49,083 bases of DNA. Origin: Opitutus sp. (lineage in GTDB: Bacteria > Verrucomicrobiota > Verrucomicrobiia > Opitutales > Opitutaceae). The stretch spans positions 1-49,083 of the forward strand of contig PNJQ01000021.1 in the NCBI GenBank assembly GCA_013821985.1, given 5' to 3'. Position 1 is the first letter of the stretch; each line of letters begins with the position of its first letter. The translations under genes and the position numbers were made by a program. This document shows, in pieces, positions 16,032 to 41,862 of this stretch. The notes under the pieces were generated by a model. The model had not been told where the DNA came from and ran no database searches. It saw only the letters and a program-made list of their open reading frames with translations.

Positions 16032-18279
16032 GCTGAATGCCGCGCTCGCATGTTGTGTGAGGGCCTCCGCAATTCCGAGGTGGTCGCCGCTGTCCCGAGC
16101 GGCGATGAGTAGCGTGAATGACGACCGCACCGTGTCGCCGCTGGGACAGCGGCGACCACCTTCGAGCGCGTGGCGCACGCTGCATTTCGCCAATCGGAGA
16201 CTGGCGCTACTTTTTGCCGCGCTCACCGCCATCGCGGCAGCAACATCGCCCGCGCCCGCCGCCGAGTTGCGCGTCACGGGCATGGGCCCATTCGGCAGCC
16301 GCGAGACGACGCGCAGCTTGCAACTGCTGCTCGGCGACCAGCTCGCGCCGGAGACGATCGATGCGCCGCCGATCGAGGACGCCGCGCTGATTCTTTATCA
16401 TGAGTTGCAGCAGGACGGCTATCTCGACGCGCGCATCACCGCGGCCGTCACTGCCGCCGACGGCAGCGTAACGAAGTTTCCAATCACAGCCGATTTGAGC
16501 GAACCACTGCCCCGTCCACTCGCGGCGCGCGGCGTCGAGCTGCAGGTTGAGCGGGGCACGCGCTTTCTCATTCGCGAAATCGAGTTCTCCGGACTGAGCG
16601 CGATGACGGCGGAGGCGGCGCGCGGTTTTTTTACGGGCGAGACGATGCTCGTGCCGCTGGCCGCCGACCGCGTTTATTCCCCCGCCGGCGTGCGGAACTC
16701 CGCGGGCAATCTCGAGGAGGAACTGCGGTTGCGCGGCCACGCCGACGCCGCCGTCACCATCGCGCACGAGGAAGTTGATCACACCAATGGCGCGGTGCGT
16801 CTCGCGATCGCCGTGCATGAAGGCCCGGTGTGGCGCGTGGATGCGGTGAACTTCCTCGAGCGCGCGGAGCCGATGACGCCGCCGGAATTTTTGCAGGAAC
16901 GACTTGGGCAAGCGTGGTCCCCGCTCTGGCGGCAGGACGCGGCGACGGCGGTGCGGCGGTGGTATTTCGAGCGCGGGTTTCCCGACGTGCGCGTGCGCGT
17001 GGCGCCGCGCTTGGGGGAGCAGACGATGGGACGGCAAAGCGTGACGGCCGAAATTCGCGTGCAGCCCGGTGCGCAATTGCGACTCGGAGACGTGCGTCTC
17101 GCCGGCAACACGCACACGCAGGAGCGGACGATGCGTCGGATGCTGAAGTTGAAACCTGGTGAGCTGCTCAATCCGATCGAGATCGACAATGCCCAGGCGC
17201 GGCTGTCGCGGCTCGGTGTGTTCAACCGCATCGATGTGCGCTACGAAGACGCGGGGGTGGGCGTGCGCGACGCGGTGTTCGACGTCACCGAGGGGCGGCT
17301 ACAGGAGGTGAATTTGCTCGCAGGTTACGGCAGCTACGAACAGCTCCGCGCGGGCGTTGAGTGGCAGCACTCGAATCTCTTCGGCCGCGCGCACACCAAC
17401 AACCTCCGGCTCGTCCAGTCGATGAAGAGCACGAGCCTCGATAACCGCTACACCGTGCCTTCGCTTTTCGGCACCGAGGTCGATGGCAGCGCGCGGCTCT
17501 TCGCCCTACGGCGCGAGGAGTTGTCGTTTGTGCGCGAGGAATACGGCGCGAATCTCTCGCTCTCGCGCGCATTCCCGTCGATTCACTCCACGGCGACAGC
17601 GAGCTACAATCTCCGGCGACTCCGCTCCTCGGCCAACGAACTCGCCACGAGCCCCATCGACCAAAGCGAGGCCAACGTCGCTTCGGTCGATCTGCGCCTC
17701 GTGCGTGACCGCCGCGACAACCCGCTCTCGCCGCGCGCGGGCCACCGGTTGTTTGCGCAGGTGGAGTTCGCCAGCAAGGTGCTCGGCGGCGAAGTGGATT
17801 ATCAACAGCTCCAGTTGGGCGCTTCGTATCACCGGGCGATCGGCCGCAGTCGCTGGCTTCATCTCGGGCTGGAGCACGCGGTCGTAACGACGTTCGGCGC
17901 GGACGATGACCGCGCGCTGCCGGTGAACGTGCGGTTCTTCCCCGGGGGTGACGCATCGATTCGCGGCTACAATCGCGGCGAAGCCGCGCCGCGTGCGGCC
18001 AACGGCCAGTTCGTCGGCGCAAAAACTTACCTGCAGTTCAACGTCGAACTCGAGCAGGCGATCACCCCGAAGTTTTCGGTCGTGCTGTTCGGCGACGCGC
18101 TCGGCACCGCGGCGCAACTCGCCGACTACCCGCTCGACGACCGACTCTACTCGGTCGGGCTCGGTCTGCGCTACCACACGATCATCGGTCCGCTGCGCAT
18201 TGAGTATGGTCGAAACCTCAACCCGCGCCCCCTGGATCCGTCGGGGACGCTGCTGCTGTCGATTGGGTTTCCGTTTTGA
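16015..18279 (+). CDS. BamA/TamA-family outer-membrane barrel protein
   Basis: Up to 754 aa. POTRA domains fill about residues 85-425, the last one being very clear (LRLGDVRLAGNTHTQERTMR; then a helix ending RLSRLGVFNRIDV). An Omp85 beta-barrel follows to the end, with the VRFFPGGDASIRGYNRG motif and a C-terminal aromatic strand (GTLLLSIGFPF). It would insert proteins into the outer membrane together with the TamB-like partner. The start is uncertain. GTG 16015 overlaps the tamB-like gene, but the signal peptide (RRLALLFAALTAIAAATS) begins only at about residue 62. In-frame ATG 16105 or GTG 16132 would shorten the odd N-terminus, part of which is encoded by a perfect palindromic repeat (16078-16161). 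Confidence 0.87.
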   Translation: MKSGSKLNAALACCVRASAIPRWSPLSRAAMSSVNDDRTVSPLGQRRPPSSAWRTLHFANRRLALLFAALTAIAAATSPAPAAELRVTGMGPFGSRETTRSLQLLLGDQLAPETIDAPPIEDAALILYHELQQDGYLDARITAAVTAADGSVTKFPITADLSEPLPRPLAARGVELQVERGTRFLIREIEFSGLSAMTAEAARGFFTGETMLVPLAADRVYSPAGVRNSAGNLEEELRLRGHADAAVTIAHEEVDHTNGAVRLAIAVHEGPVWRVDAVNFLERAEPMTPPEFLQERLGQAWSPLWRQDAATAVRRWYFERGFPDVRVRVAPRLGEQTMGRQSVTAEIRVQPGAQLRLGDVRLAGNTHTQERTMRRMLKLKPGELLNPIEIDNAQARLSRLGVFNRIDVRYEDAGVGVRDAVFDVTEGRLQEVNLLAGYGSYEQLRAGVEWQHSNLFGRAHTNNLRLVQSMKSTSLDNRYTVPSLFGTEVDGSARLFALRREELSFVREEYGANLSLSRAFPSIHSTATASYNLRRLRSSANELATSPIDQSEANVASVDLRLVRDRRDNPLSPRAGHRLFAQVEFASKVLGGEVDYQQLQLGASYHRAIGRSRWLHLGLEHAVVTTFGADDDRALPVNVRFFPGGDASIRGYNRGEAAPRAANGQFVGAKTYLQFNVELEQAITPKFSVVLFGDALGTAAQLADYPLDDRLYSVGLGLRYHTIIGPLRIEYGRNLNPRPLDPSGTLLLSIGFPF
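16078..16161. repeat. Long palindromic repeat at the 5' end of the BamA/TamA-like gene
   Basis: Perfect 19-base inverted arms, AGGTGGTCGCCGCTGTCCC (16078-16096) and its complement (16143-16161), enclose 46 bases that hold shorter inner arms (GAGCGGCGA / TCGCCGCT). It lies inside the longest open frame, just before the signal-peptide codons. A degenerate relative is at about 39073-39115. It looks like a REPIN-type mobile palindrome. Confidence 0.8.
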
Positions 18280-22260: not shown

Positions 22261-23016
22261 ATGTCTTCCACGCAGGCCCCCTATCATCGCTTGCGTCCCC
22301 ACCCTGCACTGACCCAGCACTACGCCCGCCCGGAAGATAAGCCGGGGTTTGTCGATAACCTGTTCGACCAAGGCGCGCCGCACTACGATGCGATTGTGGA
22401 CTGGGGTTTCCTGCGCAGCGGCGCTGGCTATCGCCGTTGGGTGCAACAGCGCCACGGCCTCAAGCCCGGGCACCGCGTCCTCGACGTCGCATGCGGCACG
22501 GGACTGGTGGCGATGGAGGCGGCGAAGATCCTCGGCAGCGCGGAGAACATCACGTGCCTCGACCCGAGTGCCGGCATGCTCGCCGTCGCGCGCAAGAAGC
22601 TCGCCGCCACCTTCGTGCAGGGACGCGCGGAAGCGATCCCACTCGCGGACGATTCCTTCGACTTTCTCACGATGGGCTATGCGCTGCGCCATGTGAGCGA
22701 CCTCGACACGACCTTTCGCGAATACGCCCGCGTGCTGAAACCCGGCGGGAAGCTCCTCATCCTGGAGGTCACGAAGCCGAAGAGTCAGCTCGGCAGATTT
22801 TTCTTCCGCGTTTATTTCGGCCAGGTCTATCCGTTCCTCTCCGGCCTCCTTACGCGCAGCGCCAGCGCGAAAACGATGATGCGCTACTATTGGGAAACCA
22901 TGGACGCGTGCGTGCCGCCCGAAAGCGTGCTCGCCGCCCTGCGCGGAGCCGGCTTGCGCGACGTCAAACGCACGACGGCGCTCGGCTTGTTCAGCGAATA
23001 CACCGCGACCAAATAG
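22261..23016 (+). CDS. Class I SAM methyltransferase (UbiE-like), first gene of the polyene-like cluster
   Basis: A 251-aa soluble methyltransferase. Motif I is VLDVACGTGLVAMEAA (Asp75 to Gly81), the acidic loop ITCLDPSAGMLAVARKK follows, then motif II/III (FDFLTMGYALRHVSDLDTTF and VLKPGGKLLILEVTKPKSQL). This pattern is closest to UbiE/MenG enzymes that methylate ring carbons of quinone precursors. In aryl polyene clusters a related methyltransferase (ApeB-like) modifies the aryl head group, which would suit the chorismatase-derived ring proposed here. It starts a string of eleven same-strand genes; the gap to the ACP gene is 21 bases. Confidence 0.86.
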   Translation: MSSTQAPYHRLRPHPALTQHYARPEDKPGFVDNLFDQGAPHYDAIVDWGFLRSGAGYRRWVQQRHGLKPGHRVLDVACGTGLVAMEAAKILGSAENITCLDPSAGMLAVARKKLAATFVQGRAEAIPLADDSFDFLTMGYALRHVSDLDTTFREYARVLKPGGKLLILEVTKPKSQLGRFFFRVYFGQVYPFLSGLLTRSASAKTMMRYYWETMDACVPPESVLAALRGAGLRDVKRTTALGLFSEYTATK

Positions 23017-23037
23017 CTGCGCGCTCCTCCGTCGTCC

Positions 23038-23412
23038 ATGCATCCTCCACCCCCCAGCCCCGGACCGGCCTTCGACCCCGAGGCGTCGATTCGTCATCTG
23101 CCGGAAGCCGCGCGCGCCTGCTACCGCGAGTTTCGCGCGACCGGAGACCTCGACTCGCTGGACCCGCTCATTCTCGCGATCCTCGAGTCGTTCCTCCCGC
23201 GCAAGTCCGCGCGCAGCCTGCGCGAACTCCCCGGCGACACCCGCCTGATGGAGGACCTCGGTTTCGATTCGCTCGCGATGACGGAAATCGTCTTTTTCAC
23301 CGAAGATCTCTTCGGCATCCGGATCGAGACGCGCGAACTCCTGACCGTGCGCACGATCGATGACCTGCGCTCATTCATCCGGCGGAAGATTTCCACCCGG
23401 GCGACCCCTTGA
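23038..23412 (+). CDS. Acyl carrier protein with N-terminal extension
   Basis: 124 aa. The carrier domain is at about residues 42-118, with the phosphopantetheine attachment site Ser78 in MEDLGFDSLAMTEIV and the usual following helix (FFTEDLFGIRIETREL). The first ~40 residues are Pro-rich and then helical, longer than a standard ACP. It should carry the growing chain or the aryl starter as a thioester. It is one of two carrier proteins in the cluster, as in aryl polyene systems (ApeE/ApeF). It lies 13 bases before the ketosynthase gene. Confidence 0.88.
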   Translation: MHPPPPSPGPAFDPEASIRHLPEAARACYREFRATGDLDSLDPLILAILESFLPRKSARSLRELPGDTRLMEDLGFDSLAMTEIVFFTEDLFGIRIETRELLTVRTIDDLRSFIRRKISTRATP

Positions 23413-23425
23413 CCGCCCAGCGCGC

Positions 23426-24730
23426 ATGACGCACCTCCCCGTGGTCACCGGTCTGGGTTTCGTAACGAGCATCGGCAACGACCATGCCACCGTCCGCCGC
23501 AGCCTGCGCGAGCTCCGGCACGGGTTCGCGCCGCACGTTTTCCTTGGCAATCCCGATCTGCCCGTCCGCGTCGCGGGCACCATCAAGGGCTTCTCGTTTC
23601 CCTCGCCGCATTGCCGCGAGTGGACCTGGCCGGCCGAACTCGAAATTGACCGCGAACTGCTCCGCGGCCTCGCCCCACACGGCGTCTATGCGCTGCACGC
23701 GGTCGAGCAGGCGTTACGCGACGCCGGTCTCACCGCAGCCGACCTTGCGGGCGGAGCAACCGGCCTGTTTTGCGCGTCCGCCGGCTCGCCTTTTCTCCTC
23801 GGCCATTTTCTCCAGCAGATGCAACTCTCGCGCGGCGAGCGCGGCAATCCGATGGGCATCGTTTCCTCGATCGCGGGCACGTTGAACTTCAATCTCGCCG
23901 CGCATTACCGCATCTCGGGTGCAGTGTGCGGCTTCGTGTCCGCGTGCGCGTCATCCAGCCACGCGCTCGGCTACGCCATGGACGAAATCCGTCTCGGCCG
24001 CCAGCAACGCATGCTCGTCGTCGGCGCGGAAGACATGACCGATGAAAGCATCCTGCCCTTCGCCAGTCTCCGCGCGCTTTCGACCAACGACGATCCCGGC
24101 ACCGCGTCGCGCCCGTTCGACCGCCGACGCGACGGGTTTGTCGGCACGGGCGGCGCCGTCGCTTTGATCGTCGAGCAGGCCGAGCTCGCTCGCTCGCGCG
24201 GCGCGCGCATCTACGCCGAACTGGTCGGCTGGGGTCAGGCCGGGGATGGCCACAGCATCGCGGCCTCGCATCCCGAGGGCGCGGGCTTGCGCGAAGCGAT
24301 GCGCCGCGCGCTCGCCGATTCCGGCGTGGCGCCCGCCGAGATCAGTTACGTCAATGCCCACGCCACGTCCACATCCGCCGGTGACCGCTCCGAAGCGCTC
24401 GCGCTCCACGCCGTCTTTACCGCAGCGGGCGCGCACCCGCGCATCAGCAGCACGAAAGCGTTAACCGGCCACGGTCTCTCGCTGGCCGGTGCGATGGAAG
24501 CCGCGTTTTGCGCGCTGGCGGTGCACGACGGCTTCATCCCGGGCGCGGCGCATCTCGAGGAACCGGATCCAATTTGCGACGGTCTTGATTTGCCCCGCAC
24601 CTCGCTCCAGGAAGCCCCCGGCCTCGTGCTGAACAACAGCAGCGGCTTCGGCGGCAGCAACGTCTGCCACGTCCTCCGCCGCGCCACCGACCGCGCACCG
24701 GCTAACGCCACTGGCGCGCCCATCGAATAG
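23426..24730 (+). CDS. Beta-ketoacyl-ACP synthase (FabF-like), cluster ketosynthase 1
   Basis: A 434-aa condensing enzyme that extends acyl thioesters by decarboxylative addition of malonyl-ACP. The complete Cys-His-His set is present: Cys174 in FVSACASSSHA, His312 in VNAHATSTSAGD, and Lys344 with His349 in STKALTGHGLS. The C-terminal GGSN motif (NSSGFGGSNVCHVL) is also intact. The ATG at 23426 matches the normal thiolase-fold start (PVVTGLGFVTSIGNDHATV); the longer frame reads through the ACP gene end. It is likely the main elongating ketosynthase (ApeO/ApeR-like) and sits between the two ACP genes. Confidence 0.92.
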   Translation: MTHLPVVTGLGFVTSIGNDHATVRRSLRELRHGFAPHVFLGNPDLPVRVAGTIKGFSFPSPHCREWTWPAELEIDRELLRGLAPHGVYALHAVEQALRDAGLTAADLAGGATGLFCASAGSPFLLGHFLQQMQLSRGERGNPMGIVSSIAGTLNFNLAAHYRISGAVCGFVSACASSSHALGYAMDEIRLGRQQRMLVVGAEDMTDESILPFASLRALSTNDDPGTASRPFDRRRDGFVGTGGAVALIVEQAELARSRGARIYAELVGWGQAGDGHSIAASHPEGAGLREAMRRALADSGVAPAEISYVNAHATSTSAGDRSEALALHAVFTAAGAHPRISSTKALTGHGLSLAGAMEAAFCALAVHDGFIPGAAHLEEPDPICDGLDLPRTSLQEAPGLVLNNSSGFGGSNVCHVLRRATDRAPANATGAPIE

Positions 24731-24737
24731 ATTTCCG

Positions 24738-25004
24738 ATGTCCGACCCACTCGTCACTCGTCTCAAGGCGCTCATCGTCGCCACGCTCAAGCTCGATTCC
24801 ATCCAGCCGGCGGACATTCCCGACGATGAGCCGCTCATCGGCTCCACGCAGCTCGGGCTGGATTCGATCGACGCACTCGAGCTCGTGCTCGCGCTCGAGA
24901 AGGAGTTCGGCGTGAAGATCGGCAGCAGCGAGGAATCGCGCCGGGCGCTGGCGAGCGTCAATGCGCTGGCCGCCTACATCCGCAAACATTCACCGGGCGC
25001 CTGA
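24738..25004 (+). CDS. Acyl carrier protein, second
   Basis: An 88-aa standard-length ACP with the attachment site Ser43 in STQLGLDSIDALELVLALE and the usual third helix (EFGVKIGSS). It is distinct in sequence from the first carrier (23038). Two carriers suggest separate jobs, for example starter loading and chain extension, as proposed for ApeE and ApeF. It lies 7 bases after the ketosynthase stop and is immediately followed by the next ketosynthase. Confidence 0.92.
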   Translation: MSDPLVTRLKALIVATLKLDSIQPADIPDDEPLIGSTQLGLDSIDALELVLALEKEFGVKIGSSEESRRALASVNALAAYIRKHSPGA

Positions 25005-25005
25005 C

Positions 25006-26124
25006 GTGCCCCTGCGCATGGCCCCGCTCGAGCAACTTCCGGCCGGCATCGAGGCGTCCGACTGCGTGACGCCCCTCGGCGACGCTGCGGCGACGTGCGA
25101 CGCGTTGCTGGCCGGGCGGAGCGCGCTGCAGTTCACGCCGGTCCTCGGCGCCGACGGCGGAGACGCGGCGCCGCTCGCGCTGCTGGGCCCGATGGACGAG
25201 ACGCTCCCGCCGCGCTGGCTGCCGCCGCTGCGGCAACTCGCCGCCCACATTCCCGCGGGCCGCTGGGGCTCGGCGCGCGAACCGGTCTTCGTCACAAGCA
25301 GCAACTTCGGCGTCGGCAGCCTTTACGCATACGTCCGTTCGAAAAATCGCGCGCACGTCGCCCACGGCACGCCATTTGCCTCCGTGGAACTGCTGCGTCG
25401 TGAACTCGGATGGGGCACGCAAGTGCACGTGTTCTCGCACGCGTGCGTCACGGCGCACCTCGGTCTCGCGCACGCCGCGCGCCTGCTGCACGCGGGACTC
25501 GCGGATCGGGTGCTCGTGTTCTCGTTCGATTTCGTCAGCCCGTTCGTCGCGGGCGGTTTTCACAGCCTGAAAATCCTCAACGCCGGCTTGCCCGCGCCCT
25601 TTGCCGAGCGCGAGACGGGGTCGATTGGCTTGGGTGATGGTGCGGCGTTCGCCGTGCTGACACGCGAGCCGACGCAACACCGCATCGAGGCGCACACGCT
25701 GCACAACGAAATGCATCACTTCACCGCCAACCAAGCCGACGGCGCCGGTTTCGCCGCCGTGCTCGCGCCGCTCGCCGAACTCGCGCGCGGCCGGCGCGTC
25801 TGGGTGAAGGGACACGGCACGGGCACGCTCGAAGCCGGCAAACTCGAAGCCGAAGCGGTGGCGCAAGCGTTCGGGGACGCGCCACTGGTTTCCTGGAAAG
25901 GCAGCCTCGGTCACACGCTCGGGAGTTGCGGTCTCGTCGAGCTGGCCATCACGCGCGCGGCGCTCGCGGGCGGCACGATTCCCGGCACCGTCGGCAGCGC
26001 GCCGCCGTGTTTTTCGCCGTCGGTGGCGCTCGCGCCATTCTCCGCGACGCCGTTCGACGCGGCGATTCTCACCAGCAACGCCTTCGGCGGCGCGCACGCC
26101 GCGCTCCTGCTCCGCCATGATTGA
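25006..26124 (+). CDS. Beta-ketoacyl synthase-like enzyme, cluster ketosynthase 2
   Basis: 372 aa from GTG 25006 (ATG 25018 is equally possible). Shorter than FabF, but it keeps the catalytic positions: Cys147 in VFSHACVTAHLGL, His270 in VKGHGTGTLEAGK, and Lys298 with His303 in WKGSLGHTLGS. The sequence around the cysteine (HACVTA) differs from the standard ACSSG, so substrate choice may be special, for example an aryl starter. In aryl polyene loci two or three ketosynthase homologues work as pairs. Its stop overlaps the next start (ATGATTGA). Activity is inferred from retained residues only. Confidence 0.85.
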   Translation: MPLRMAPLEQLPAGIEASDCVTPLGDAAATCDALLAGRSALQFTPVLGADGGDAAPLALLGPMDETLPPRWLPPLRQLAAHIPAGRWGSAREPVFVTSSNFGVGSLYAYVRSKNRAHVAHGTPFASVELLRRELGWGTQVHVFSHACVTAHLGLAHAARLLHAGLADRVLVFSFDFVSPFVAGGFHSLKILNAGLPAPFAERETGSIGLGDGAAFAVLTREPTQHRIEAHTLHNEMHHFTANQADGAGFAAVLAPLAELARGRRVWVKGHGTGTLEAGKLEAEAVAQAFGDAPLVSWKGSLGHTLGSCGLVELAITRAALAGGTIPGTVGSAPPCFSPSVALAPFSATPFDAAILTSNAFGGAHAALLLRHD

Positions 26125-26773
26125 GCGCTTCATCCACCGCGTCGCCACGGACATTCCGGATCCGGCGGAAACCGCCGCGACGGCGCGCATGCGCCTCGGC
26201 GAAAAATTCCCGCGCACCGCCCTGCGGCGCATGACGCACCTCGGCCTGCTGACCGGCTCCGCGCTCGACGGCATCGCGCTCACGCCCGAAGACACGCTCG
26301 TCTATGCGACAACTTTTGCGGAGACGCGCGCGCTGGAGGATTTCCTCGTGAGTTTTCCGGTCGCAAGCCCGCTGCTGTTTCAGACCTCGATCCATCCCGG
26401 CGGCGTGCAGCAAGTGATGATCGGTCGCCAACAACCCGTGGGGCGACTCTGGCCACTCGCGGGCGGACCGCGGCTCGTGGAACACGCGCTGCAAACCGTG
26501 CTGCTCGATCCCGCCGCGCGCGTCGTCCTCGCGGGCGGCGAGGAGCGCGGCACATGGATGCTTGAGCTCGGCATGGCGGCGGCGCAGCCGTTCGCGTTTG
26601 CAGTGGAATTCACGCGCGAAGCGGCGGCCGCGCTGGGAAAAATCTCCTTCACGCCGGGAGACGAGAACGACGCGCCTTGTCCGACGCTGGAAAATTTCGC
26701 CCGCGCGCTGCCATCGCGGATGCCGCTGGGCTGGCGCGGCGCCGGTGGCGCCTGGGCGGTCACGTGGTCGTGA
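26117..26773 (+). CDS. Ketoacyl-synthase-like chain-length-factor-type protein (ApeC-like)
   Basis: 218 aa. Weak but recognisable similarity to the ketoacyl-synt_2 type found in aryl polyene loci: the RTALRRMTHLGLLTGSAL start, a strand with VYATTFAETRALEDFLVSF, the SPLLFQTSIHPGGVQQVMIG stretch that corresponds to the dimer-interface part of a ketosynthase, and VVLAGGEERGTW. There is no catalytic Cys or His pair, so it cannot condense on its own. It more likely partners ketosynthase 1 or 2 and limits chain length. It overlaps both neighbours (8 bases before; GTGA after). Confidence 0.65.
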   Translation: MIERFIHRVATDIPDPAETAATARMRLGEKFPRTALRRMTHLGLLTGSALDGIALTPEDTLVYATTFAETRALEDFLVSFPVASPLLFQTSIHPGGVQQVMIGRQQPVGRLWPLAGGPRLVEHALQTVLLDPAARVVLAGGEERGTWMLELGMAAAQPFAFAVEFTREAAAALGKISFTPGDENDAPCPTLENFARALPSRMPLGWRGAGGAWAVTWS

Positions 26774-27699
26774 ACACCGCGCTCCAGTCGCAGCGTAATC
26801 CCGGTCCGAGCTGGGGCTACGCGTTTCTCCTCTGGGCCGACCGCTGGTGGCCGCGCGGACTGTTTCGCCTGGGGCTCATGATCGGCACCTGGGTCGGCTT
26901 GGCGAACATGCCGGCGCAGCGCGCGCACTCGCGCGCCTACCTCGCGCATATGCTCGGCCGGCCGCCGCGGCTCGTGGAAGTGTGGCGGCATTTTTTCGCG
27001 TTCGCCGAATTCCTCATGCTCAAGCTCCGCGCGGGTCGCGGCGTCGCCGTGCGCGGACGGCTCGAGCCGGAAAACGCCGCGGAGTTCGACGCGCTCGTCG
27101 CGTCCGATCGCCCGGCCTTGTTTGGCACCTTTCATTTCGGCTGCTCGGATTTGCTCGGCTTCCTGCTCGGCGATCGGGGCCGGCGCGTGACGCTGATCCG
27201 GTTGCGCGTGGAAAACTCGGCCGACACCGAATTGCTCGGATCGCGCTTCGCGGAGCACGTGTCGTTCCTGTGGGTGAACGATCCCGCAAACTTGCTCTTC
27301 GAGCTGAAGGACGCGCTCGAGGCCGGCCTGTCGCTGGCGATGAAATGCGATCGGCTGGAATTTAGCGCGAAGGCGGAGGCATTCGAGTTCCTCGGCGCGC
27401 GCCGCCTGTTCCCTTTCACGATCTACCACCTCGCGGTGATGTTCGATCGCCCGGTGGTGTTTTGCGTCGCGATTCCGGATGCGGGGCCGGATGCGATTCG
27501 CGTTTTCGCGTCGCCGGTGTTCACGCCGGACGCGACCCTCGGTCGGGCCGAGAATCTCGCGCGCGGGCGTTCGCATTTCCAAGCGGTGCTCGCGCAACTC
27601 GAAGAACTCGTGCGGCAACACCCGTCGCTCTGGTTTAATTTTCTCCCGTTGAATCCGGTCGCGGCTCCTGCGCCGCCCACGAATGCCGTTGTGCGATGA
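26770..27699 (+). CDS. LpxL/HtrB-like lipid acyltransferase
   Basis: 309 aa from GTG 26770, overlapping the previous stop (GTGA). It is a bacterial lipid A acyltransferase homologue with an N-terminal membrane anchor region (WPRGLFRLGLMIGTWVGLAN) and the HX4D/E motif as His122 to Asp127 (GTFHFGCSDLLGF). Further family blocks are VTLIRLRVENSADTELLG and SLAMKCDRLEFSAKAEAF. In aryl polyene loci the corresponding enzyme (ApeD) attaches the finished chain or a fatty acid to a glycolipid head. The active-site acidic residue is Asp where LpxL has Glu. It probably sits at the cytoplasmic face of the inner membrane. Confidence 0.82.
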   Translation: MNTALQSQRNPGPSWGYAFLLWADRWWPRGLFRLGLMIGTWVGLANMPAQRAHSRAYLAHMLGRPPRLVEVWRHFFAFAEFLMLKLRAGRGVAVRGRLEPENAAEFDALVASDRPALFGTFHFGCSDLLGFLLGDRGRRVTLIRLRVENSADTELLGSRFAEHVSFLWVNDPANLLFELKDALEAGLSLAMKCDRLEFSAKAEAFEFLGARRLFPFTIYHLAVMFDRPVVFCVAIPDAGPDAIRVFASPVFTPDATLGRAENLARGRSHFQAVLAQLEELVRQHPSLWFNFLPLNPVAAPAPPTNAVVR

Positions 27700-28481
27700 T
27701 TTATCGGCTCTACTCCATCCCAGCGTATTACCTCACCGTCACCTGCTTCGGCATGGTCGGTTTTGCGTTGAGCGTCGGAGGCTTCCTGCTGGGTTGGTTG
27801 CCCGTGCGGCCGGGGATCGAACGGTTTTTTCAGCGCGCGATTCATCGCTGCTTTCGCCTGTTCGTTTGGTGGGGACGCGTGGCGAACGTCATGCCGGTGG
27901 AGTTCGTGAATTTCCCCTGCGCGTCGCGCGGCGCCGTCGTGCTGGCGGCGAATCATCCGGCGCTGGTGGACATCACGCTGTTGCTCGCGCGGCTGCCGGA
28001 AGCGGTGTGCATCTTCAAGCCCGCCATCCGCCGCAATCCCGTGCTCGGCGCGGCCGCCCGCCGCGCGGGCTACCTCGCGGGCGACGGCGGGCCCGACCTC
28101 GTGCGCCGCGCCGCCGAAATCGTCGCGGCGGGCAACACGCTGGTGGTCTTCCCGGAAGGCACACGCACGCCGCGCGGCGAGGCGCTGCTGCCATTCAAGC
28201 CGGGCTTCGTGTTGATCGCCCGCCGCGCGCGTGCGCCGATCCAACTGGTGCGGATCGAAACCGACTCCAACGTCCTCGCGAAGGGTTTGCCGTGGTGGGA
28301 CGCGCCGATTCTCCCCGCGCGCTTCGTGCTCACGCTCGGACCGCTGGTTTCGACGGACAACGATCTCTCACCCACCGAGCTGTCCGCGCGAATCGCGCAG
28401 TGGTTCGCGACGCCGGCACCGGCTTGCCACGACGTGCTCGCGGGACTCACGCTGCCAGCCCCCACGCCGAGCGTTCGATGA
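27696..28481 (+). CDS. PlsC-like 1-acylglycerol-3-phosphate acyltransferase
   Basis: 261 aa with an N-terminal membrane segment (about 12-35) and the LPLAT blocks: block I NHPALVD (His87-X4-Asp92) and block III FPEGTRTPRGEAL (Glu154 to Arg157). It transfers an acyl group from a thioester to a lipid or glycerol-like acceptor. In Escherichia coli-type aryl polyene loci one protein combines acyltransferase and glycosyltransferase parts (ApeJ); here this acyltransferase and the glycosyltransferase are separate neighbours, while the glycosyltransferase is fused to LolA instead. It overlaps both neighbours by ATGA, so it is translationally coupled. Confidence 0.87.
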   Translation: MIYRLYSIPAYYLTVTCFGMVGFALSVGGFLLGWLPVRPGIERFFQRAIHRCFRLFVWWGRVANVMPVEFVNFPCASRGAVVLAANHPALVDITLLLARLPEAVCIFKPAIRRNPVLGAAARRAGYLAGDGGPDLVRRAAEIVAAGNTLVVFPEGTRTPRGEALLPFKPGFVLIARRARAPIQLVRIETDSNVLAKGLPWWDAPILPARFVLTLGPLVSTDNDLSPTELSARIAQWFATPAPACHDVLAGLTLPAPTPSVR

Positions 28482-29890
28482 CTGTTTCCTCCACGCACTT
28501 GGTTCTCGTTCCGTCCTACCACACGGGCCCGCGGCTGCGCGGCGTCGTCGAGGAAGCGCTCGCCCACTGGCAGCCCGTATTGGTGGTGCTCGACGGTTGC
28601 ACCGACAGCTCCGCGGCCGTCCTCGCGGACCTCGCGCGTTCGCACGCTGGACTGACCGTGCTCGAACTGCCGGAGAACCGCGGTAAAGGTGCCGCCGTCC
28701 TCGCCGGCGCCGCCCACGCGCTGAAGCGCGGATTCACGCACGCGCTCGTGATGGACGCCGATGGCCAACACCCGGCGGCGAGCATCGCGGAGTTCATGGC
28801 GACGTCGCAGGCGCGGCCCGACGCGCTCGTGCTCGGTCGCCCGCAATTTCCGGCGAACATTCCCGCGGAACGCCTGCACGGCCGGAAGCTCAGCGTGGGC
28901 CTCGTGCGCTTCGAACTCTTTGGCGCCGGCATCGACGATCCGCTTTTCGGTTTTCGCGTCTATCCGCTCGCGCCGCTCGTCCGCGAACTCGGCCCACGTC
29001 GCAGCGGCCGGCGCTACGATTTCGACACCGAGGCGGCGGTGCGCCTCGCGTGGGCCGGCGTGCCGCCGGTGAATCTCGCCGCGCCGGTGCGCTACTTTTC
29101 GCGCGCCGAGGGCGGCGTCTCGCATTTTCATTACGTGCGCGACAACGCCACTCTCGTCTGGATGCACACGCGACTGATCGCCGAACTATTGCTGCTCCGC
29201 TGGCCGCGCCTGCTCCGTCATCGTCGCGCCTGGCGTGCCGTGGCTGCGGCCGCGCTCGCCGCTCTGATGCTGCTCCCGGCTTCGCTCGCCACCGAGTCCG
29301 CCTCGTCAGCGGCGACGGTCGCCGCGTCGGAGACCATCGATCCGACCTCGCCGGCGTGGGCGGAGCTGTTCGGCACGTTTGCGGAGAAGCGCAACACTGT
29401 CGCGAAGTTTGTCGAGCGGCGGCATTTTCCCTTCCGCAAGGAACCAGTCGAACTCACGGGCGTCGTGCGCGTCTCCGCGGAACAGGGGCTCAGCCTCGCC
29501 TACGCCACGCCTGAAGCGCGCATCGTCGTGCTCGACGATCGCGGCGTGCTGCTGCGCGACGCGCGCGGCGACCGCACGCCTCCGGCCGACGCGCGCGGCG
29601 CGGCGGTGAATGCGGCGCTCGTCCACGTGTTGCGCTTTGATTTCCGGGCGCTTGAAAACGACTTCGTCGTCCGCGGCCGGCGCACGGTCACGGGCTGGAC
29701 CGTGGTCTTCGCGCCGCGCACCGACGCGATCCAGCGCACCACGGGGCAGATCACGGTGCGCGGAGAAGGCGCGGTCTTGCACGCGATCGAGCTGCGGCGC
29801 TCCGCGAAGCAGTTCATCGAAATCCGGATGAGCGACGTGGAGACGCGCGCGGCGTTCACCGCGGACGAACTCAAACGTTTCTTCCGATGA
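28478..29890 (+). CDS. GT2 glycosyltransferase fused to a LolA-like carrier domain
   Basis: 470 aa in one uninterrupted frame. Residues about 5-235 are a family 2 glycosyltransferase (LVLVPSYHTGPRL; VVLDGCTDSSAAVL; LPENRGKGAAVLAG; the metal-binding MDADGQH with Asp93 and Asp95). Residues 253-271 are a hydrophobic stretch after a basic patch (RLLRHRRAWR), able to act as membrane anchor. Residues about 290-470 look like an outer-membrane lipoprotein carrier LolA (VAKFVERRHFPFRKEPVELT; VVRVSAEQGLSLAYATPEAR). The topology would put the transferase inside and LolA in the periplasm. In known aryl polyene loci the two are separate genes (ApeJ, ApeL). An internal start before residue 255 could also give a separate LolA. 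ATGA overlaps occur at both ends. Confidence 0.83.
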   Translation: MTVSSTHLVLVPSYHTGPRLRGVVEEALAHWQPVLVVLDGCTDSSAAVLADLARSHAGLTVLELPENRGKGAAVLAGAAHALKRGFTHALVMDADGQHPAASIAEFMATSQARPDALVLGRPQFPANIPAERLHGRKLSVGLVRFELFGAGIDDPLFGFRVYPLAPLVRELGPRRSGRRYDFDTEAAVRLAWAGVPPVNLAAPVRYFSRAEGGVSHFHYVRDNATLVWMHTRLIAELLLLRWPRLLRHRRAWRAVAAAALAALMLLPASLATESASSAATVAASETIDPTSPAWAELFGTFAEKRNTVAKFVERRHFPFRKEPVELTGVVRVSAEQGLSLAYATPEARIVVLDDRGVLLRDARGDRTPPADARGAAVNAALVHVLRFDFRALENDFVVRGRRTVTGWTVVFAPRTDAIQRTTGQITVRGEGAVLHAIELRRSAKQFIEIRMSDVETRAAFTADELKRFFR

Positions 29891-32226
29891 CCACGCTGCG
29901 TCGGCGCCAGCTTTTCGGCGGCGGGCTGCTCGTCCTCGCAGCGCTCCTGTGCGGCGCGTGGTTGCTGCGCATGGATCGCGCCGCGAAAATCTCGACCGAT
30001 GTGCTCGACCTAATCCCGGCGGGCGAGCGCTCGCCGGAACTGACGCTGGTGCGCCAACTCGCGAGTCACGCCGAGGCGCGCACGATGTTGCTCGAACTCA
30101 CGGACGGAGGGAAACCTGCCTCACCCGCCGCCGTCGCCCGGTTTGTTGCGACGCTGCAACGTGAACCGAGTCTCGCGAGCGTTGTGGCGATGGACGACCC
30201 TCGTTTACGCGACGGCGTCGCGCGCATCGTGCACGCCGAGCGATTCAGTCTGTTGTTTCCGGCGTGGTTGGAGCAGCAGCAAAAAAATTTCTCCACGACC
30301 GGACGTCCCCCCGCCGAGTTCGTGAGCTGGCTCGCCGAAGAAGCGGCGCAGGCGCTGACACGTTTTCTCGGCCAGGCCGAGGCGCTCGCGTTCCAGGATG
30401 TGTTGCCGTCAGACCCGCTGCTGCTGTTGCCCTCTCTCGCGATGGAAATGAAAGGCGGGCTCGATGTCGTGGCGCCGCCTACTGACAGCGCCGCACCTGC
30501 ACTCGTGTGGGCGCAACTCGCGGCTTCGCCGTTGAGTGAGGAAGGACAGGGGCCGGTCTTCGCCGCGTTGGATCGCGCGCTCGCGGAAAGCCGACGCGAG
30601 TTCCCGCGCCTGCAACTCGCTTATACGGGGATCAATCGCTTCGCCGCCGCCAGCCGCGCGCGCATTGAACGGGAGGTTAAGCTGCTGAACGCGCTGTCGC
30701 TTGTCGCCGTGCTTGGCATCGCGCTCGTGTTCCTCCGTTCGGCGTGGCGCGGGCTGCATCTCGTGCCGGCGATCGCGCTGTCGATGCTCGGCGCGTGGAC
30801 TTGCACGACGCTGATGTTCGACCGCGTGCACGTGCTGGTGTTCGTCGTCGGCTCGTTGCTGACCGGCGTGGCGATCGACTACGGATTTTATTTGTTCATG
30901 CAGCCGCCGCAGCATGCGGGTGAAGATTACTGGGCGAAAGTTCGGCGACTGTTGAAGCCGCTGCTCGCAAGTTGCGCCACGACCGTCGCGGGCTTCGCGC
31001 TCCTGCTGTTTTCGGAGCTGCCGCTCATCCGCCAGCTCGGCGTGTTTGTCGGCAGCGGCCTCGTGTCGGCGCTGCTGGCGGCGATCCTGTATTTTTCGAC
31101 GGTGAGAAACGATTTTCTGGAAACGCGCACGTTTCGCGCGGGCGGGCTTTTGTCCGCAGGCGCGCGACGGTGGGCACGGCGCGGGTTGGTGGCGCTGTGG
31201 CTGACTGGCTTGCCAGGATTGGCTTGGCTGACGTGGCGCGACGACATCCGCGAATTGGAGATTCCCTCGCCGGAACTGCATCGCGAGGACGCGCGGCTTC
31301 GCGCGTTGTTCGGCGAACGCGGCGACGGCGTGGCGTATCTTTCCTACGGCGCCACGCTCGGCGAGGCGCGCGAGGCGCTGCGCCGCCTCGAAGCGTGGCT
31401 GGTGTCGAGCGGCGGGAACGCCGTGAACCTCGCGCGCGTGGTCCCAACCGATGATGCGCACCGCGCCGCACTCGCGTTTCTGCGGGACGCGCCGGATTTC
31501 GTGATGAAGCTGCGCGGCGCGCTCGAGCGTCAAGGGTTCGACGCCGCGGAGTTCGAGCTGTTTTTCACCGCATTTGCGGAGCATGCGCGCGACGCACGCG
31601 CCGCCGATTTGCCCGCTGCGGTGGAGCGGTTGCAGGCGGGACTCGTTGGCCCGCTGAGCTTGCTCGTCCATCGCGGCGAGACGCTGAGTTGGTTCGTGAC
31701 CCTCGCGTCGCGTCCGCCCGGGGTAACGCCCCCGGTTGAGGCGAGCAGCGTTGCGGCGAGCCAGTTGCAGTCGTTGAACCACGTCTTCGCGCGCTACCGG
31801 CGAGCGGCAGTGTGGTTCAGCCTCGCGGGTCTCGGGCTGGTCGGCGGGGGCGTGTTGCTGACCTATGGTTGGCGCGACGGCTGGCGGATCTTTGCGATCC
31901 CGTGCGGGACGTGTCTCGGCGTGTTCGGCTGGTTCGGCTGGGCGGGCGTGCCACTCAATCTGTTTCACCTCCTCGGCGCGTTCCTCGGCTTGTGCCTGAT
32001 GCACAACTACTCGATCTTCTCCGCCACTTCAGCGTTTCGCGGCGAAGCGCCGCCGGCGTCGGTGCGCTTGTCGGCGCTGACCACCGCGGCGTCTTTCGGC
32101 GTGCTGGCGCTGAGCAGCATTCCGGTCGTGCAAGCGCTCGGCTCGACCGTTGCGCTGATGATCGTCGGCGCGCTGGTCATCATCGAACTCGAACACTTGT
32201 CTGCGCTCGGCGCGCCGCATGCCTGA
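29887..32226 (+). CDS. MMPL/RND-family exporter (ApeM/XanF-like)
   Basis: 779 aa with the two-half MMPL layout. A first transmembrane helix (about 10-28) is followed by a large periplasmic domain and a helix bundle at about 258-410, with the conserved FVVGSLLTGVAIDYGFYLFM stretch. A short helix and second periplasmic domain (about 430-630) and a second bundle to the C-terminus follow (LFHLLGAFLGLCLMHNYSIF). RND/MMPL proteins use the proton gradient to move lipids. In xanthomonadin and aryl polyene loci the homologue is thought to pass the glycolipid product to the LolA-like protein for delivery to the outer membrane, matching the fusion gene just upstream. Overlaps: ATGA before, ATGCCTGA after. 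Confidence 0.87.
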   Translation: MTTLRRRQLFGGGLLVLAALLCGAWLLRMDRAAKISTDVLDLIPAGERSPELTLVRQLASHAEARTMLLELTDGGKPASPAAVARFVATLQREPSLASVVAMDDPRLRDGVARIVHAERFSLLFPAWLEQQQKNFSTTGRPPAEFVSWLAEEAAQALTRFLGQAEALAFQDVLPSDPLLLLPSLAMEMKGGLDVVAPPTDSAAPALVWAQLAASPLSEEGQGPVFAALDRALAESRREFPRLQLAYTGINRFAAASRARIEREVKLLNALSLVAVLGIALVFLRSAWRGLHLVPAIALSMLGAWTCTTLMFDRVHVLVFVVGSLLTGVAIDYGFYLFMQPPQHAGEDYWAKVRRLLKPLLASCATTVAGFALLLFSELPLIRQLGVFVGSGLVSALLAAILYFSTVRNDFLETRTFRAGGLLSAGARRWARRGLVALWLTGLPGLAWLTWRDDIRELEIPSPELHREDARLRALFGERGDGVAYLSYGATLGEAREALRRLEAWLVSSGGNAVNLARVVPTDDAHRAALAFLRDAPDFVMKLRGALERQGFDAAEFELFFTAFAEHARDARAADLPAAVERLQAGLVGPLSLLVHRGETLSWFVTLASRPPGVTPPVEASSVAASQLQSLNHVFARYRRAAVWFSLAGLGLVGGGVLLTYGWRDGWRIFAIPCGTCLGVFGWFGWAGVPLNLFHLLGAFLGLCLMHNYSIFSATSAFRGEAPPASVRLSALTTAASFGVLALSSIPVVQALGSTVALMIVGALVIIELEHLSALGAPHA

Positions 32227-33571
32227 GTCATTGCTCAACGTCTGGCAAAAAACCGTTGCGCGTCACGGCGCTCGCATCGCGCTAACGCAGGCGACGGACA
32301 ATGCGCGCTGCACTTTTCGCGAATTGGACGCGCGCGCCCGCGCGTGGGCGGAGCAACACACCGGAGCCAGACTGCGCGGCCGCGCCGTCGCCTTCAGCAC
32401 GTCGAACGGCATCGCGTGGTTCGAAATTCTTCTCGGCCTGTGGCACGCGGACGCGGTGGCCGTGCCGCTCGACCCCGGCGAACCGCCGGAGGAATTGCGC
32501 TCGCTGACCGCGGCGCTGCGCGGGGCGGCGTGGTGGGACGGCGCGGCGCTGCAGACGACCGCGGGCAAACCACGACGCTTCGATGCGGAGGATTGCTTGA
32601 TCAAGCTCACGTCGGGTTCGACCGGCGCGCCGCAACCGCTTGTGTTCACGGCGGCGCAACTGCTCGCCGACGGACGGCAGGTCATGCGCGGCATGGGCAT
32701 CACCGCGCGCGACGTGAACTACGCGCTCATCCCCTGTGGACATTCCTACGGGCTCGGCAATCTGGTGCTGCCGCTCGTCGCGGCGGGCGTGCCACTCGTG
32801 TGCGGATCGGCGCCGTTTCCGCATGCGATCGCGGAGGATTTTGCGCGCTGGAAACCGAGCGTGTTTCCCGGTGTGCCCGCACTCTGGCGCGCGCTCGCGG
32901 CGAGCGAGGTGCAGTTGCGCGGGCTGCGCCTCGCAATTTCGGCCGGAGCCCCGCTGTCCGCGGAGGTGGCGGGGGAGTTTTTCGCGCGCCACGGCATGCA
33001 CGTGCACAGTTTCTACGGCTCAAGCGAAACCGGCGGCGTGAGCTACGACCGCAACGGGCGCGACACGCTCGCCGGCCGCGTCGGCCACGCGTTGCCCGGC
33101 GTGAAACTGCAGGTACTCGCCGGGCAGCGGCTGCTCGTGACAAGCGCGGCGGTGCTGACCCGCGGCAATCGCCGACGACGCGGCGCGCGGGGGCAATGGG
33201 TCATGGCCGATCTCGTGGAGCGCGACGCGCGCGGATCGTTGCAGCTCCTCGGACGGCGCGGGACGTTTGTGAAGATTGCAGGACGGCGCGTGAATCTCGC
33301 GGACATCAGTGTGCGGTTGCGCGCGTTGCCCGGGGTGAGCGACGCATGGGTCGCAGTAAGCGAAGGCGCGGAGTCCGTGTTGCTCGGTGCCGCGCTGGCG
33401 ACGACGCTTTCGCCCGCGGAAATTCGCGCGGCCGCCCGCGCGCACCTGCCGGCGTGGAAAATGCCGAAGGTGCTGCTGACTTTTCCCGCACTGCCGCTCA
33501 CGCCGCGCGGGAAGCTGGAGACAGCAGCGTTGCGCCAGGGCTTGTTCCGCGGCGCAAGCGCGCGGCGGTGA
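32219..33571 (+). CDS. AMP-binding acyl/aryl ligase (ApeH/XanA2-like)
   Basis: A 450-aa member of the ANL superfamily, which adenylates a carboxylic acid and passes it to a thiol. Core motifs: LIKLTSGSTGAPQPL (A3, about residues 127-141), YGSSETGG (A5), MADLVERD (A7), RRGTFVKIAGRRVNLADI (A8) and the C-terminal catalytic Lys in TPRGKLETA. The chain is shorter than CoA ligases and the ATP loop is slightly unusual. It would activate the hydroxybenzoate starter and load it on one of the ACPs. Last gene of the co-directional string; ten bases separate its stop from that of the convergent chorismatase gene. Confidence 0.86.
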   Translation: MPESLLNVWQKTVARHGARIALTQATDNARCTFRELDARARAWAEQHTGARLRGRAVAFSTSNGIAWFEILLGLWHADAVAVPLDPGEPPEELRSLTAALRGAAWWDGAALQTTAGKPRRFDAEDCLIKLTSGSTGAPQPLVFTAAQLLADGRQVMRGMGITARDVNYALIPCGHSYGLGNLVLPLVAAGVPLVCGSAPFPHAIAEDFARWKPSVFPGVPALWRALAASEVQLRGLRLAISAGAPLSAEVAGEFFARHGMHVHSFYGSSETGGVSYDRNGRDTLAGRVGHALPGVKLQVLAGQRLLVTSAAVLTRGNRRRRGARGQWVMADLVERDARGSLQLLGRRGTFVKIAGRRVNLADISVRLRALPGVSDAWVAVSEGAESVLLGAALATTLSPAEIRAAARAHLPAWKMPKVLLTFPALPLTPRGKLETAALRQGLFRGASARR

Positions 33572-33581
33572 TCCGGCAGCG

Positions 33582-34487
33582 TCAAAGGAGCGTCGCCTCG
33601 ATCTCGACCTTGAGTGACGCGCGGCAGATCTCTGCCCGGACGTAAGAAACGTGGTCGTGCGCCGTGAAAAGCTCTTCCGCCAACGCCGCAGCCATTGCGG
33701 CGTAATCTTCAGCGTGACGCAGGTAGACCTTGAAGTGCCGCGTGCGCACACCGGCTGCCAGATTTTCGCCCAAGCCGCACACGCGGGAAATCGCGCGGAG
33801 GTTTTCCAACGTGCACGCGAGTTGGTCGGCCGTGCTTTCGGGTGCCATCGTGGCGTGGCCGCGGATGGCCGCCGTGCCGGAGATGAAGACCGCGGGCTCG
33901 CGCCCCGCACGCGGGACGCCCGTCGCGCGCGCGAAGCTCGGCGGACGCGGGCCATATTGCTCGGGATAATGGTAGGCCGGGACCTGCAGCGGATTTTCGT
34001 AGTGCTGCGGCGGCACCGCGCTCGCCGCGAACGCGATCGTCAACCGCCCGTCCTGGCAGCCGACGGCGGACGCGGAGGGCAGTAATTGGCTGAACCCCGC
34101 GCCATGGGCGCGCTCGAATGCCAGCGAACGCCCGCGGCAAAACGCGCGGTAGTTTTCGAGCCCGCCCACGCCCGTGCCATTGATGTCGGGCACGTAATTC
34201 CAAATGCGCGCGAGGTGCCGGCCGCTCGTGACCGCGCACAGTTGCGCATAAAGGCTGTGTGCGGACGCTTCGAGCGTGGTGGGCGTCACTTCCACCGCAG
34301 CCGCGCCGAGCAGCCAATCGTCCCCTCGAAAAAGGCGGATGCTCCCGTGCGCCTCGATCTCGTGCACGGCGCCGAAGAGATTCTCCACCGCGCAGCCGCC
34401 GAGCACCGGAAGACCAGGATTGAAAACGGCCGGGCCGATCTCGATCGCGAGTCCCGTCTGGGCAAAAGAAGCTGGGGCCGCGCGCAC
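33582..34487 (-). CDS. FkbO/Hyg5/XanB2-family chorismatase
   Basis: 301 aa from GTG 34487. Two RidA/YjgF-like halves with the chorismatase-specific blocks: ARIWNYVPDINGTGVGGLEN followed by YRAFCRGRSLAFE, the strongly conserved YENPLQVPAYHYPEQYG then PRPPSFARATG, and VFISGTAAIRGHATM followed by LACTLENLRAI. Members hydrolyse chorismate to pyruvate plus 3- or 4-hydroxybenzoate (Hyg5/XanB2) or a dihydroxycyclohexadiene acid (FkbO). XanB2 supplies the starter of xanthomonadin, an aryl polyene, so placement here beside the ligase and ketosynthases strongly suggests starter supply. It is convergent with the cluster and follows the VTT gene on the minus strand. Which product type is made cannot be told by eye. 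Confidence 0.85.
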   Translation of the reverse strand: MRAAPASFAQTGLAIEIGPAVFNPGLPVLGGCAVENLFGAVHEIEAHGSIRLFRGDDWLLGAAAVEVTPTTLEASAHSLYAQLCAVTSGRHLARIWNYVPDINGTGVGGLENYRAFCRGRSLAFERAHGAGFSQLLPSASAVGCQDGRLTIAFAASAVPPQHYENPLQVPAYHYPEQYGPRPPSFARATGVPRAGREPAVFISGTAAIRGHATMAPESTADQLACTLENLRAISRVCGLGENLAAGVRTRHFKVYLRHAEDYAAMAAALAEELFTAHDHVSYVRAEICRASLKVEIEATLL

Positions 34488-40818: not shown

Positions 40819-41421
40819 TTACCAGCCGACGCCGGGACGGCGGGTCTGTTTGGCGATCTGGCGCTCTTCTTCCCAGACGGTCAGGCCGGTCTTCACCTGG
40901 ACGAGCGACATCTGGAACGCGTAGGTGTTCTGCGTCGTGCCGCCCTGACGGTCGGTCTGTTGGATGAGTTTCGCGTAGAGCGTGTAGTCCGGCACGATCG
41001 TCTTCTGCTTCTTGCCGGATTGCATTTCCTCGAGTTCGGCGGCTTCGGAGGCGACGACCGCGCGCTCGCCGAGGCCAAGCGTGTTGGTGATCGCGACCTT
41101 ACCGGTCTGCGTGAGGGCAACGCGGATTTTTTTGATCAACAGGTCCGTGTCGATCATCAGCTGCGTGTTGTTGATCACGCGATCGACGGCGAGCACGGCG
41201 GGGTGCTTGGGCGCGCGCTCAAGGGCGCCGGAAGTGATGAGCGAGCCGGTGAGCTGGTCGGCGGCATTGGCCCAGTCCTGCGGGTTAATCGCGGAGGTGT
41301 TGAGCGACTCCGGGCCCTTGGCATCGACGGTGCGCGTCTCCTGGGTGGTGACGCAGCCGGTGAGGAGCAGCGCGGCGGAGGCCGCGGCGGCCCCGAAGAA
41401 TTTGGTGGTGGTGGCTTTCAT
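40819..41421 (-). CDS. lpoB: Penicillin-binding protein activator LpoB
   Basis: A 200-aa outer-membrane lipoprotein with lipobox LLLTGC (AAAASAALLLTGCVTTQE). The remainder matches LpoB: a flexible linker, NPQDWANAADQLTGSLITSG, a strand-helix core (VLAVDRVINNTQLMIDTDLL; KIRVALTQTGKVAITNTLGL), and the conserved VPDYTLYAKLIQQ and TYAFQMSLVQVKTGLTVWEE near the end. LpoB reaches through peptidoglycan to activate the synthase PBP1B in proteobacteria; here the partner is not in the window. It is the last gene of a five-gene minus-strand operon, 12 bases after ycfL and followed by a strong terminator. Confidence 0.9.
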   Translation of the reverse strand: MKATTTKFFGAAAASAALLLTGCVTTQETRTVDAKGPESLNTSAINPQDWANAADQLTGSLITSGALERAPKHPAVLAVDRVINNTQLMIDTDLLIKKIRVALTQTGKVAITNTLGLGERAVVASEAAELEEMQSGKKQKTIVPDYTLYAKLIQQTDRQGGTTQNTYAFQMSLVQVKTGLTVWEEERQIAKQTRRPGVGW

Positions 41422-41433
41422 GAGTAAGGCGGG

Positions 41434-41862
41434 TTATTCGCGGAACTTGAGGCGGAAATCAACCGCGCGCGGGTTGATCGAGACGGTGGAGATGGCGGAC
41501 GTCTCGCGACCCTGGAGCGTGATCGTCTTCCAGGTTTCGTTGGGGGAATCGATCGCCATGCCATCGACGTCGATCCACTCGAACTTGTAGTTCAGCGTGC
41601 GGGTGCTGTTCTTCAGGTTCTCGACCGTGGCCTGAACCTTCATCAGGTTGTTCGAAACCATCGCCTGGTTGATGGACACGACGCGGAAGGTGCCGGCGAG
41701 GGTGTTGTCGGTGATGACGCGCTTGTCGGGAATGTAGCTCGGCGAACCGAGCGATTCCGCGCGTTCGTAGGCGTTGACGTTGGTGGCGCAGCCGGAGAGC
41801 AGCGCGGTGAGGCCGAGCGCTGCAGCGGCGAGCGCGAGACGGAGGGAGCGGGTGGAGTTCAT
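41434..41862 (-). CDS. ycfL: YcfL family (DUF1425) lipoprotein
   Basis: A 142-aa lipoprotein with lipobox LLSGC (AAAALGLTALLSGCATNV). The mature part is the DUF1425 beta-sandwich (LAGTFRVVSINQAMVSNNLM; VQATVENLKNSTRTLNYKFE; WIDVDGMAIDSPNETWKTIT). In enterobacteria ycfL lies next to lpoB (ycfM), and the same neighbours are kept here. Function unknown; probably an envelope partner of LpoB or the COG3014 protein. Its ATG overlaps the upstream TGA (ATGA). Confidence 0.9.
   Translation of the reverse strand: MNSTRSLRLALAAAALGLTALLSGCATNVNAYERAESLGSPSYIPDKRVITDNTLAGTFRVVSINQAMVSNNLMKVQATVENLKNSTRTLNYKFEWIDVDGMAIDSPNETWKTITLQGRETSAISTVSINPRAVDFRLKFRE

Follow-up and report, generated by a model that had tools for sequence, protein, structure and literature searches.

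The window analysed here is the whole of contig C21 (49,083 bp) of a 3.74 Mb Opitutus sp. genome assembled in 117 contigs and 79% complete. It contains a gene cluster that resembles those for aryl polyenes (APEs) and xanthomonadins and that encodes neither a ketoreductase (KR) nor a dehydratase (DH). Eleven tightly packed genes on the + strand (22261-33571) face a chorismatase gene on the − strand (33582-34487), and for all twelve genes the coordinates and strands agree with the initial annotation. The run begins with a UbiE/COQ5-type methyltransferase (22261-23016; PF01209), followed by the acyl carrier protein (ACP) ACP1 (23038-23412; PF00550), whose serine motif is kept in relatives, a FabB-like ketosynthase (KS), KS1 (23426-24730), with both Pfam KS domains, a second carrier protein, ACP2 (24738-25004), with a PP-binding Pfam domain and a best NCBIfam match, to PRK09184, below cut-off (62.8 of 70 bits), and a divergent ApeO-like ketosynthase, KS2 (25018-26124), matching Pfam Ketoacyl-synt_C. 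The remaining genes encode a half-size KS-like protein without a Pfam match (26117-26773), an LpxL/LpxM-like acyltransferase (26770-27699, with an assumed GTG start), a PlsC-like acyltransferase (27696-28481; PF01553), a GT2 glycosyltransferase fused in one frame to a LolA-like domain (28478-29890; PF00535 and PF19574, LolA_3), an MMPL-type exporter (29887-32226; PF03176) and an AMP-forming (ANL) ligase (32219-33571; PF00501), for which an ApeH-like role appears likely.

The spacing of neighbouring cluster genes ranges from a 21 bp gap to an 8 bp overlap, and the ends of the ligase and chorismatase genes are separated by 10 bp, so the intergenic gaps are too small to hide a KR or DH gene. Profile hidden Markov models (HMMs) were run on 34 loci, comprising the window's own and those of 33 relatives, and recovered the controls from E. 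coli Ape and from the C1 locus, a second locus of the same genome described below. No hotdog dehydratase was found by HMM in the 34 loci, and matches to short-chain dehydrogenase/reductases (SDRs) all fell outside the cluster genes (G179, G229, G172 and G211). The gap sizes and the HMM recheck with working controls bear out the original description of a cluster without KR or DH.

Like the classical APE clusters of E. coli CFT073 (L058) and of the same-family genomes G178 and G217, the window cluster has an ApeO-like KS with an ApeC-type chain-length factor (CLF), two ACPs, an ANL ligase, acyltransferases, GT2, LolA and MMPL. It differs from them in lacking, as first described, any counterpart of ApeQ, ApeI, ApeP, ApeG, ApeK or ApeN among its genes, and in that KS1 is not an ApeR; it also contains a chorismatase, whereas the E. 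coli CFT073 cluster as annotated does not. With the xanthomonadin-type clusters of Xanthomonas, Lysobacter and Azoarcus (arc), as set out in the available part of PMC3949708, it shares the chorismatase, ligase, KS plus short KS-like protein, GT, LolA, acyltransferase and exporter. The xanthomonadin-type clusters described in the accessible portions of PMC3949708 and PMC3691225 encode KR and DH, and the window cluster neither.

Both ketosynthases possess the full Cys-His-His triads originally ascribed to them, and these are intact in all aligned homologues (KS1, 23/23; KS2, 34/34). The best PDB profile matches of KS2 are 7f28_B and 6qsp_A; 6qsp is an ApeO-ApeC complex according to its structure title, and 7f28, whose own title is silent on this, is presumably a second such pair. 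The KS-like protein encoded downstream of KS2 has a nucleophile motif without Cys. With E up to 1 allowed, 6qsp_B and 7f28_A are the only PDB sequences that its profile matches, and the top fold matches of its predicted model (mean pLDDT 83) are 7f28_C, 7f28_A and 6qsp_B, at a modest TM of 0.49-0.63. An hhalign comparison with E. coli ApeC gave a modest match only (probability 66, E 5.7e-5). From these profile and model comparisons, the protein is identified as an ApeC-type half-size CLF.

KS1 matches FabB/FabF enzymes best in the PDB (294 bits), ahead of 4ewg (233 bits), which PMC8358021 identifies as an ApeR. In a KS tree that included the KS1 rows of 18 relatives, KS1 grouped with the C1-locus KS of the same genome and apart from the ApeR clade, each with 100/100 support. 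KS1 is accordingly a FabB-like paralogue of another KS/ACP-DH locus and not an ApeR, and by this tree position the window lacks the ApeR-type second ketosynthase of a classical APE cluster. The grouping of the ketosynthases had been set as a test in the initial annotation: KS2 is ApeO-like, with an ApeO-ApeC type KS-CLF pair present, yet falls outside the ApeO clade, and KS1 is FabB-like. The proposed APE/xanthomonadin-like core is supported by the ApeO-like KS2, the ApeC-type CLF, the ligase and the export set. Because KR, DH and ApeR were each sought and not found, the cluster is not a classical APE cluster, yet it is predicted to be APE-like in priming, condensation and export. One family genome, G222, contains KS2 twice (G222:C58 and G222:C213).

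The chorismatase matches PF21168 (FkbO_Hyg5-like_N), and its PDB matches are 5ag3, which we take to be Hyg5 in agreement with the residue numbering used, 5a3k and FkbO 4bps. Against TIGR04444 it scores 180.5 of 325 bits, below cut-off. Hyg5 key residues were taken from those given in the available part of PMC7170507 and mapped by hand, with an offset of nine from Nat-hyg5: the equivalents of G240, C327 and E334 are kept in 19/19 aligned homologues, and that of G173 is Ala in 19/19. Membership of the FkbO/Hyg5 family, as first assigned, is thus upheld by PF21168 and the PDB matches. The accompanying label "XanB2-type" is not shown by this comparison with Hyg5 key positions, of which three of four are kept and the fourth is Ala. 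XanB2 activity is of type III, yielding 3- plus 4-hydroxybenzoate; the reaction of a chorismatase is reported not to be accurately predictable from alignment (PMC3949708, in part).

KS2 (E below 1e-100) is present in 37 of 100 genomes of the same family, and a chorismatase (E below 1e-70) occurs in 35 of these 37 versus 2 of the other 63 (Fisher 3.8e-22, uncorrected for relatedness). At E up to 0.001 the chorismatase search reached 52 of the 100 genomes; the 37 below 1e-70 were counted, and the remainder begin at 4e-13. The two KS2 genomes without a counted chorismatase, G091 and G215, have weak matches only, and the two with a chorismatase and no KS2, G198 and G249, are 84% and 72% complete. 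In G179, G211 and G242, KS2 and the chorismatase are separated by over 100 kb or sit on different contigs, with both kept; in G202 and G244 they are on different contigs, though near contig ends. Because the two genes co-occur so closely, also where they are unlinked (G179, G211, G242), the chorismatase is supported as belonging to the cluster pathway, to which the initial annotation had tied it.

The LpxL-like protein, which has no Pfam match, has an LpxM/PatA fold (match LpxM 5kn7), with H125 invariant and D130 nearly so in homologues; hhalign of its profile against E. coli ApeD found no alignment. GT2 and LolA are fused in 12 of the 34 family loci, split in 19 and otherwise arranged in 3. 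The methyltransferase, which probably tailors the aryl head, is found in 9/34 loci, and flavin halogenase-like genes, which other clusters often carry in its place, in 8/34, one locus having both; methyltransferase and FAD genes occur together in 4/80 named loci. Upstream of ACP1 in L062 (12401-15267) and its relatives is a flavin halogenase/geranylgeranyl-reductase-like gene pair, mostly exclusive with the methyltransferase. Some clusters, such as L151 (16782-18227) and its relatives, include a B12-binding radical SAM protein that scores 379.5 bits against the cut-off of 360 for TIGR04072 (lipid biosynthesis B12-binding/radical SAM, "rSAM_ladder_B12"); the name of the model alone suggests a ladderane link.

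The cluster neighbourhood recurs in the loci of 33 relatives, some incomplete or rearranged, and so does not reflect chance; this is the linkage in relatives that had been named as a further test. A KS2 profile search of 84,980 named genomes gave 99 loci, the best 80 of which are mostly labelled Opitutaceae, Opitutia, Opitutales or Verrucomicrobia, with one Pedosphaera and a few only "bacterium". Isolates with the cluster include Opitutaceae bacterium EW11 (L240) and Ereboglobus sp. PH5-10 (L268). The locus sets overlap in genomes, and many loci are on short contigs, on which a missing gene means little. Six more distant Opitutales loci, L264 (Pelagicoccus), L276, L285, L286, L287 (Cerasicoccus) and L292, are collinear with the window (ACP2-KS2-CLF-LpxL-PlsC-GT2-LolA-MMPL(-ligase)) and, unlike it, keep ApeI-like and/or ApeP-like dehydratases. 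L264 and L287 have names that place them in another family, and the labels of L276, L285 and L292 go no further than Opitutales. In five of the six (L264, L285, L286, L287 and L292), PlsC and GT2 flank an ApeI-like gene, and MMPL and the ligase flank an ApeP-like one; L276, which is cut off, has the ApeI-like gene alone, between PlsC and GT2. No SDR was found in the six loci. As DH genes are present without a KR in the same distant locus, the KR would come from elsewhere, and it probably acts in trans.

The gaps between flanking genes follow the same pattern. The PlsC-GT2 gap is 305-481 bp in the six DH-bearing loci and below 100 bp in 74 of 86 measurable in-family entries; the MMPL-ligase gap is 447-518 bp in five DH-bearing loci and below 100 bp in 48 of 58 (of 100 in-family entries, both sets pooled). 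Seven in-family MMPL-ligase gaps of 1.5-1.6 kb are those of clusters with the radical SAM gene, and four PlsC-GT2 gaps above 250 bp are without explanation (G211, G035, G204 and L260). The ApeI gene directly precedes GT2 in the distant loci as it does in E. coli, which favours loss of the dehydratase over gain, and we infer that the locus lost the two subunits of the DH within the window's family. ApeI and ApeP are reported in the available part of PMC8041823 to form a heterodimer that acts as one dehydratase and has a single active site.

When the KS2 tree, in which a very long branch leads to ApeO, is labelled by DH in the locus, five changes are needed, at least four of them forced by starred branches; a single clade of the 67 in-family-like rows is not rejected (p-AU 0.465), L281 having been left out of that group though its match position is that of G203, a same-family genome. 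L281 has no DH match, an MMPL-ligase gap of 231 bp and a position beside Pelagicoccus in the tree, and it may be a separate case of DH loss. Seven other distant loci without a DH match, several of them cut (L275, L279, L283, L288, L289, L290 and L291), were counted neither as keeping nor as losing DH; the PlsC-GT2 gap is 435 bp in L283 and 752 bp in L291, which has one borderline hotdog match (E 0.00099).

Among the 100 family genomes, ApeP-like proteins (PF22817) exceed the cut-off in three (G144, G178 and G217) and ApeQ-like proteins (TIGR01831) in two (G178 and G217), all KS2-negative, and strong ApeI-like proteins occur in the same three genomes only. In some of the SDR searches, scoring began with only 24 candidates in each genome. 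The KS2-positive G185 and G259 have sub-cut-off PF22817 matches, which correspond to FabA-type hotdog frames, and the KS2-negative G184, G213, G221 and G240 barely exceed the ApeI cut-off with frames of 446-451 aa, taken as FabZ-type. ApeP-, ApeI- and ApeQ-type proteins over cut-off are therefore present in 0/37 KS2-positive genomes. FabA-like hotdogs average 3.03 per genome with KS2 and 2.97 without, showing no extra copy that accompanies the cluster. G144, G178 and G217 have a classical APE locus without a close KS2. These loci are L295, L293-L294 and L296, and that of G144 has both dehydratases, but the 20 kb read there contains no SDR.

The C1 locus of the window's own genome (L074:7996-17654) holds thioesterase, ACP-FabA-like dehydratase fusion, FabB-like KS, SDR, GT28-like and SPT-like genes, and is possibly sphingolipid-related. 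Its KS is 57% identical to KS1. The ACP-DH fusion is found in 37/37 KS2 genomes and in 55 of the 63 others. As this amounts to 92 of 100 genomes, with or without the cluster, and as the locus lies beside an SPT-like gene, C1 was rejected as the missing reductive half of the cluster and kept only as a possible source of a DH in trans.

The reading we favour, with about even confidence, is that the cluster represents a divergent Opitutales-type branch of the aryl-polyene/xanthomonadin pathway in which a polyene is made with enzymes acting in trans. The best reading of the product is a hydroxybenzoate-primed, exported lipid. The chorismatase would convert chorismate to hydroxybenzoate, which the ANL ligase would load onto an ACP, and the KS2-CLF pair, aided by KS1, would extend it with malonyl units. 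The methyltransferase would modify the ring, the LpxL- and PlsC-like acyltransferases and GT2 would attach the chain to a lipid, and LolA and MMPL would carry the product to the outer membrane. Ketoreduction would be performed by an enzyme encoded outside the locus, which may be the ancestral state, since the distant relatives keep the DHs but have no KR gene there. The lost ApeI/ApeP would most likely be replaced by a shared hotdog DH in trans, either FabZ or the ACP-DH fusion that adjoins KS1's closest paralogue, and the outcome would be a polyene or shortened polyene lipid. Supply in trans has a possible parallel in Azoarcus, for which the available part of PMC3949708 describes two unlinked pigment loci, both required; the distant-relative pattern and the ACP-DH fusion in every KS2 genome are also consistent with it.

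Several observations weigh against a polyene completed in trans. In the tree, KS2 is placed outside the ApeO clade at the end of a very long branch, and no tested dehydratase family tracks the cluster. The association of the ACP-DH fusion with KS2 is weak (p 0.025, relatedness ignored), and the SPT-like gene beside the C1 locus suggests another main role for that locus. SDR genes are found near but outside the cluster in G229 (=L224; just past the chorismatase), G179, L243 and L247, and also in the distant L290, on the opposite strand and some 0.8 kb past MMPL. Fatty acid synthase (FAS)-type FabGs, read in the own genome and 20 of the 36 other KS2 genomes and in 20 of the 63 KS2-negative ones, have Phe at the lid position in 21/21 and 20/20; with the lid Phe in 41/41, the obvious trans KR shows no adaptation. 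According to the accessible portion of PMC8041823, the FabG of Acinetobacter baumannii cannot take the place of ApeQ in vitro and L185F reduces the output of APE, and partial sources report that KR deletion in Lysobacter abolishes pigment (PMC3691225) and that most core ape mutants of E. coli lose colour (PMC8253772).

A second explanation, which we consider a serious one though short of even, is that the family clusters no longer make a polyene, and instead produce a short hydroxybenzoate-primed polyol (with a KR in trans), a polyketone or a pyrone-like product that is still acylated, glycosylated and exported. Both DH genes are gone at collinear positions while the condensing and export genes are intact, no KS2 genome has an ApeP or ApeQ homologue over cut-off, hotdog counts are unchanged, FabG is unadapted, and the three classical APE loci among the 100 genomes are all in KS2-negative ones. 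However, Pfam shows no cyclase family among the cluster genes of the window, the genes for export and attachment are those of APE, a DH could still act in trans, and a missing gene is no evidence of a product. Tentatively, a large part of the family might have turned an aryl-polyene line, via loss of both dehydratase halves, into an exporter-builder of a non-polyene hydroxybenzoate-primed polyketide lipid.

That dedicated KR and DH enzymes, of other or too divergent families, are encoded elsewhere in the genomes is improbable. The genome of the window does contain 20 SDR matches without an assigned role, and MaoC proteins occur in some genomes; yet ApeP-, ApeI-, FabA-, MaoC- and ApeQ-type profiles give no protein that tracks KS2, and MaoC shows no association with the cluster (40 bits or more in 9/37 versus 14/63). 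The suggestion in the initial annotation that the reductive enzymes lie elsewhere is weakened for dedicated enzymes, given 0/37 over cut-off and equal FabA-like counts; general or unclassified SDR and hotdog enzymes may still supply the activities. Loss of KR and DH through mis-assembly, or from a dying cluster, has next to no credibility despite the 79% completeness and 117 contigs of the genome, as the gene order is unbroken, the KS triads are intact, and the KR/DH-less core is also present in the one-contig genomes G154, G035, G114, G185, G228 and G215, which led us to reject an assembly artefact.

Our literature search found no paper joining aryl polyene with chorismatase, none joining Opitutaceae with aryl polyene, and none joining Opitutaceae, pigment and polyene; PMC8277422 reports two aryl polyene calls for Opitutales among the symbionts of ants. 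Elsewhere in the window, TamB-like and Omp85-like genes in tandem (12381-18279) look ordinary, and a − strand run of lipoprotein-like genes with a PEGA-like protein (40819-45679) is an impression from the translations alone.

The ketosynthases alone easily make a locus of this kind read as a pigment cluster. The KR/DH-less loci, their DH-bearing collinear relatives and the classical APE loci of the same family form a natural comparison, which asks whether a polyene-type KS-CLF uses general fatty-acid enzymes in trans or whether the product has changed. Many species of one bacterial family have kept the cluster despite the missing polyene-forming enzymes.

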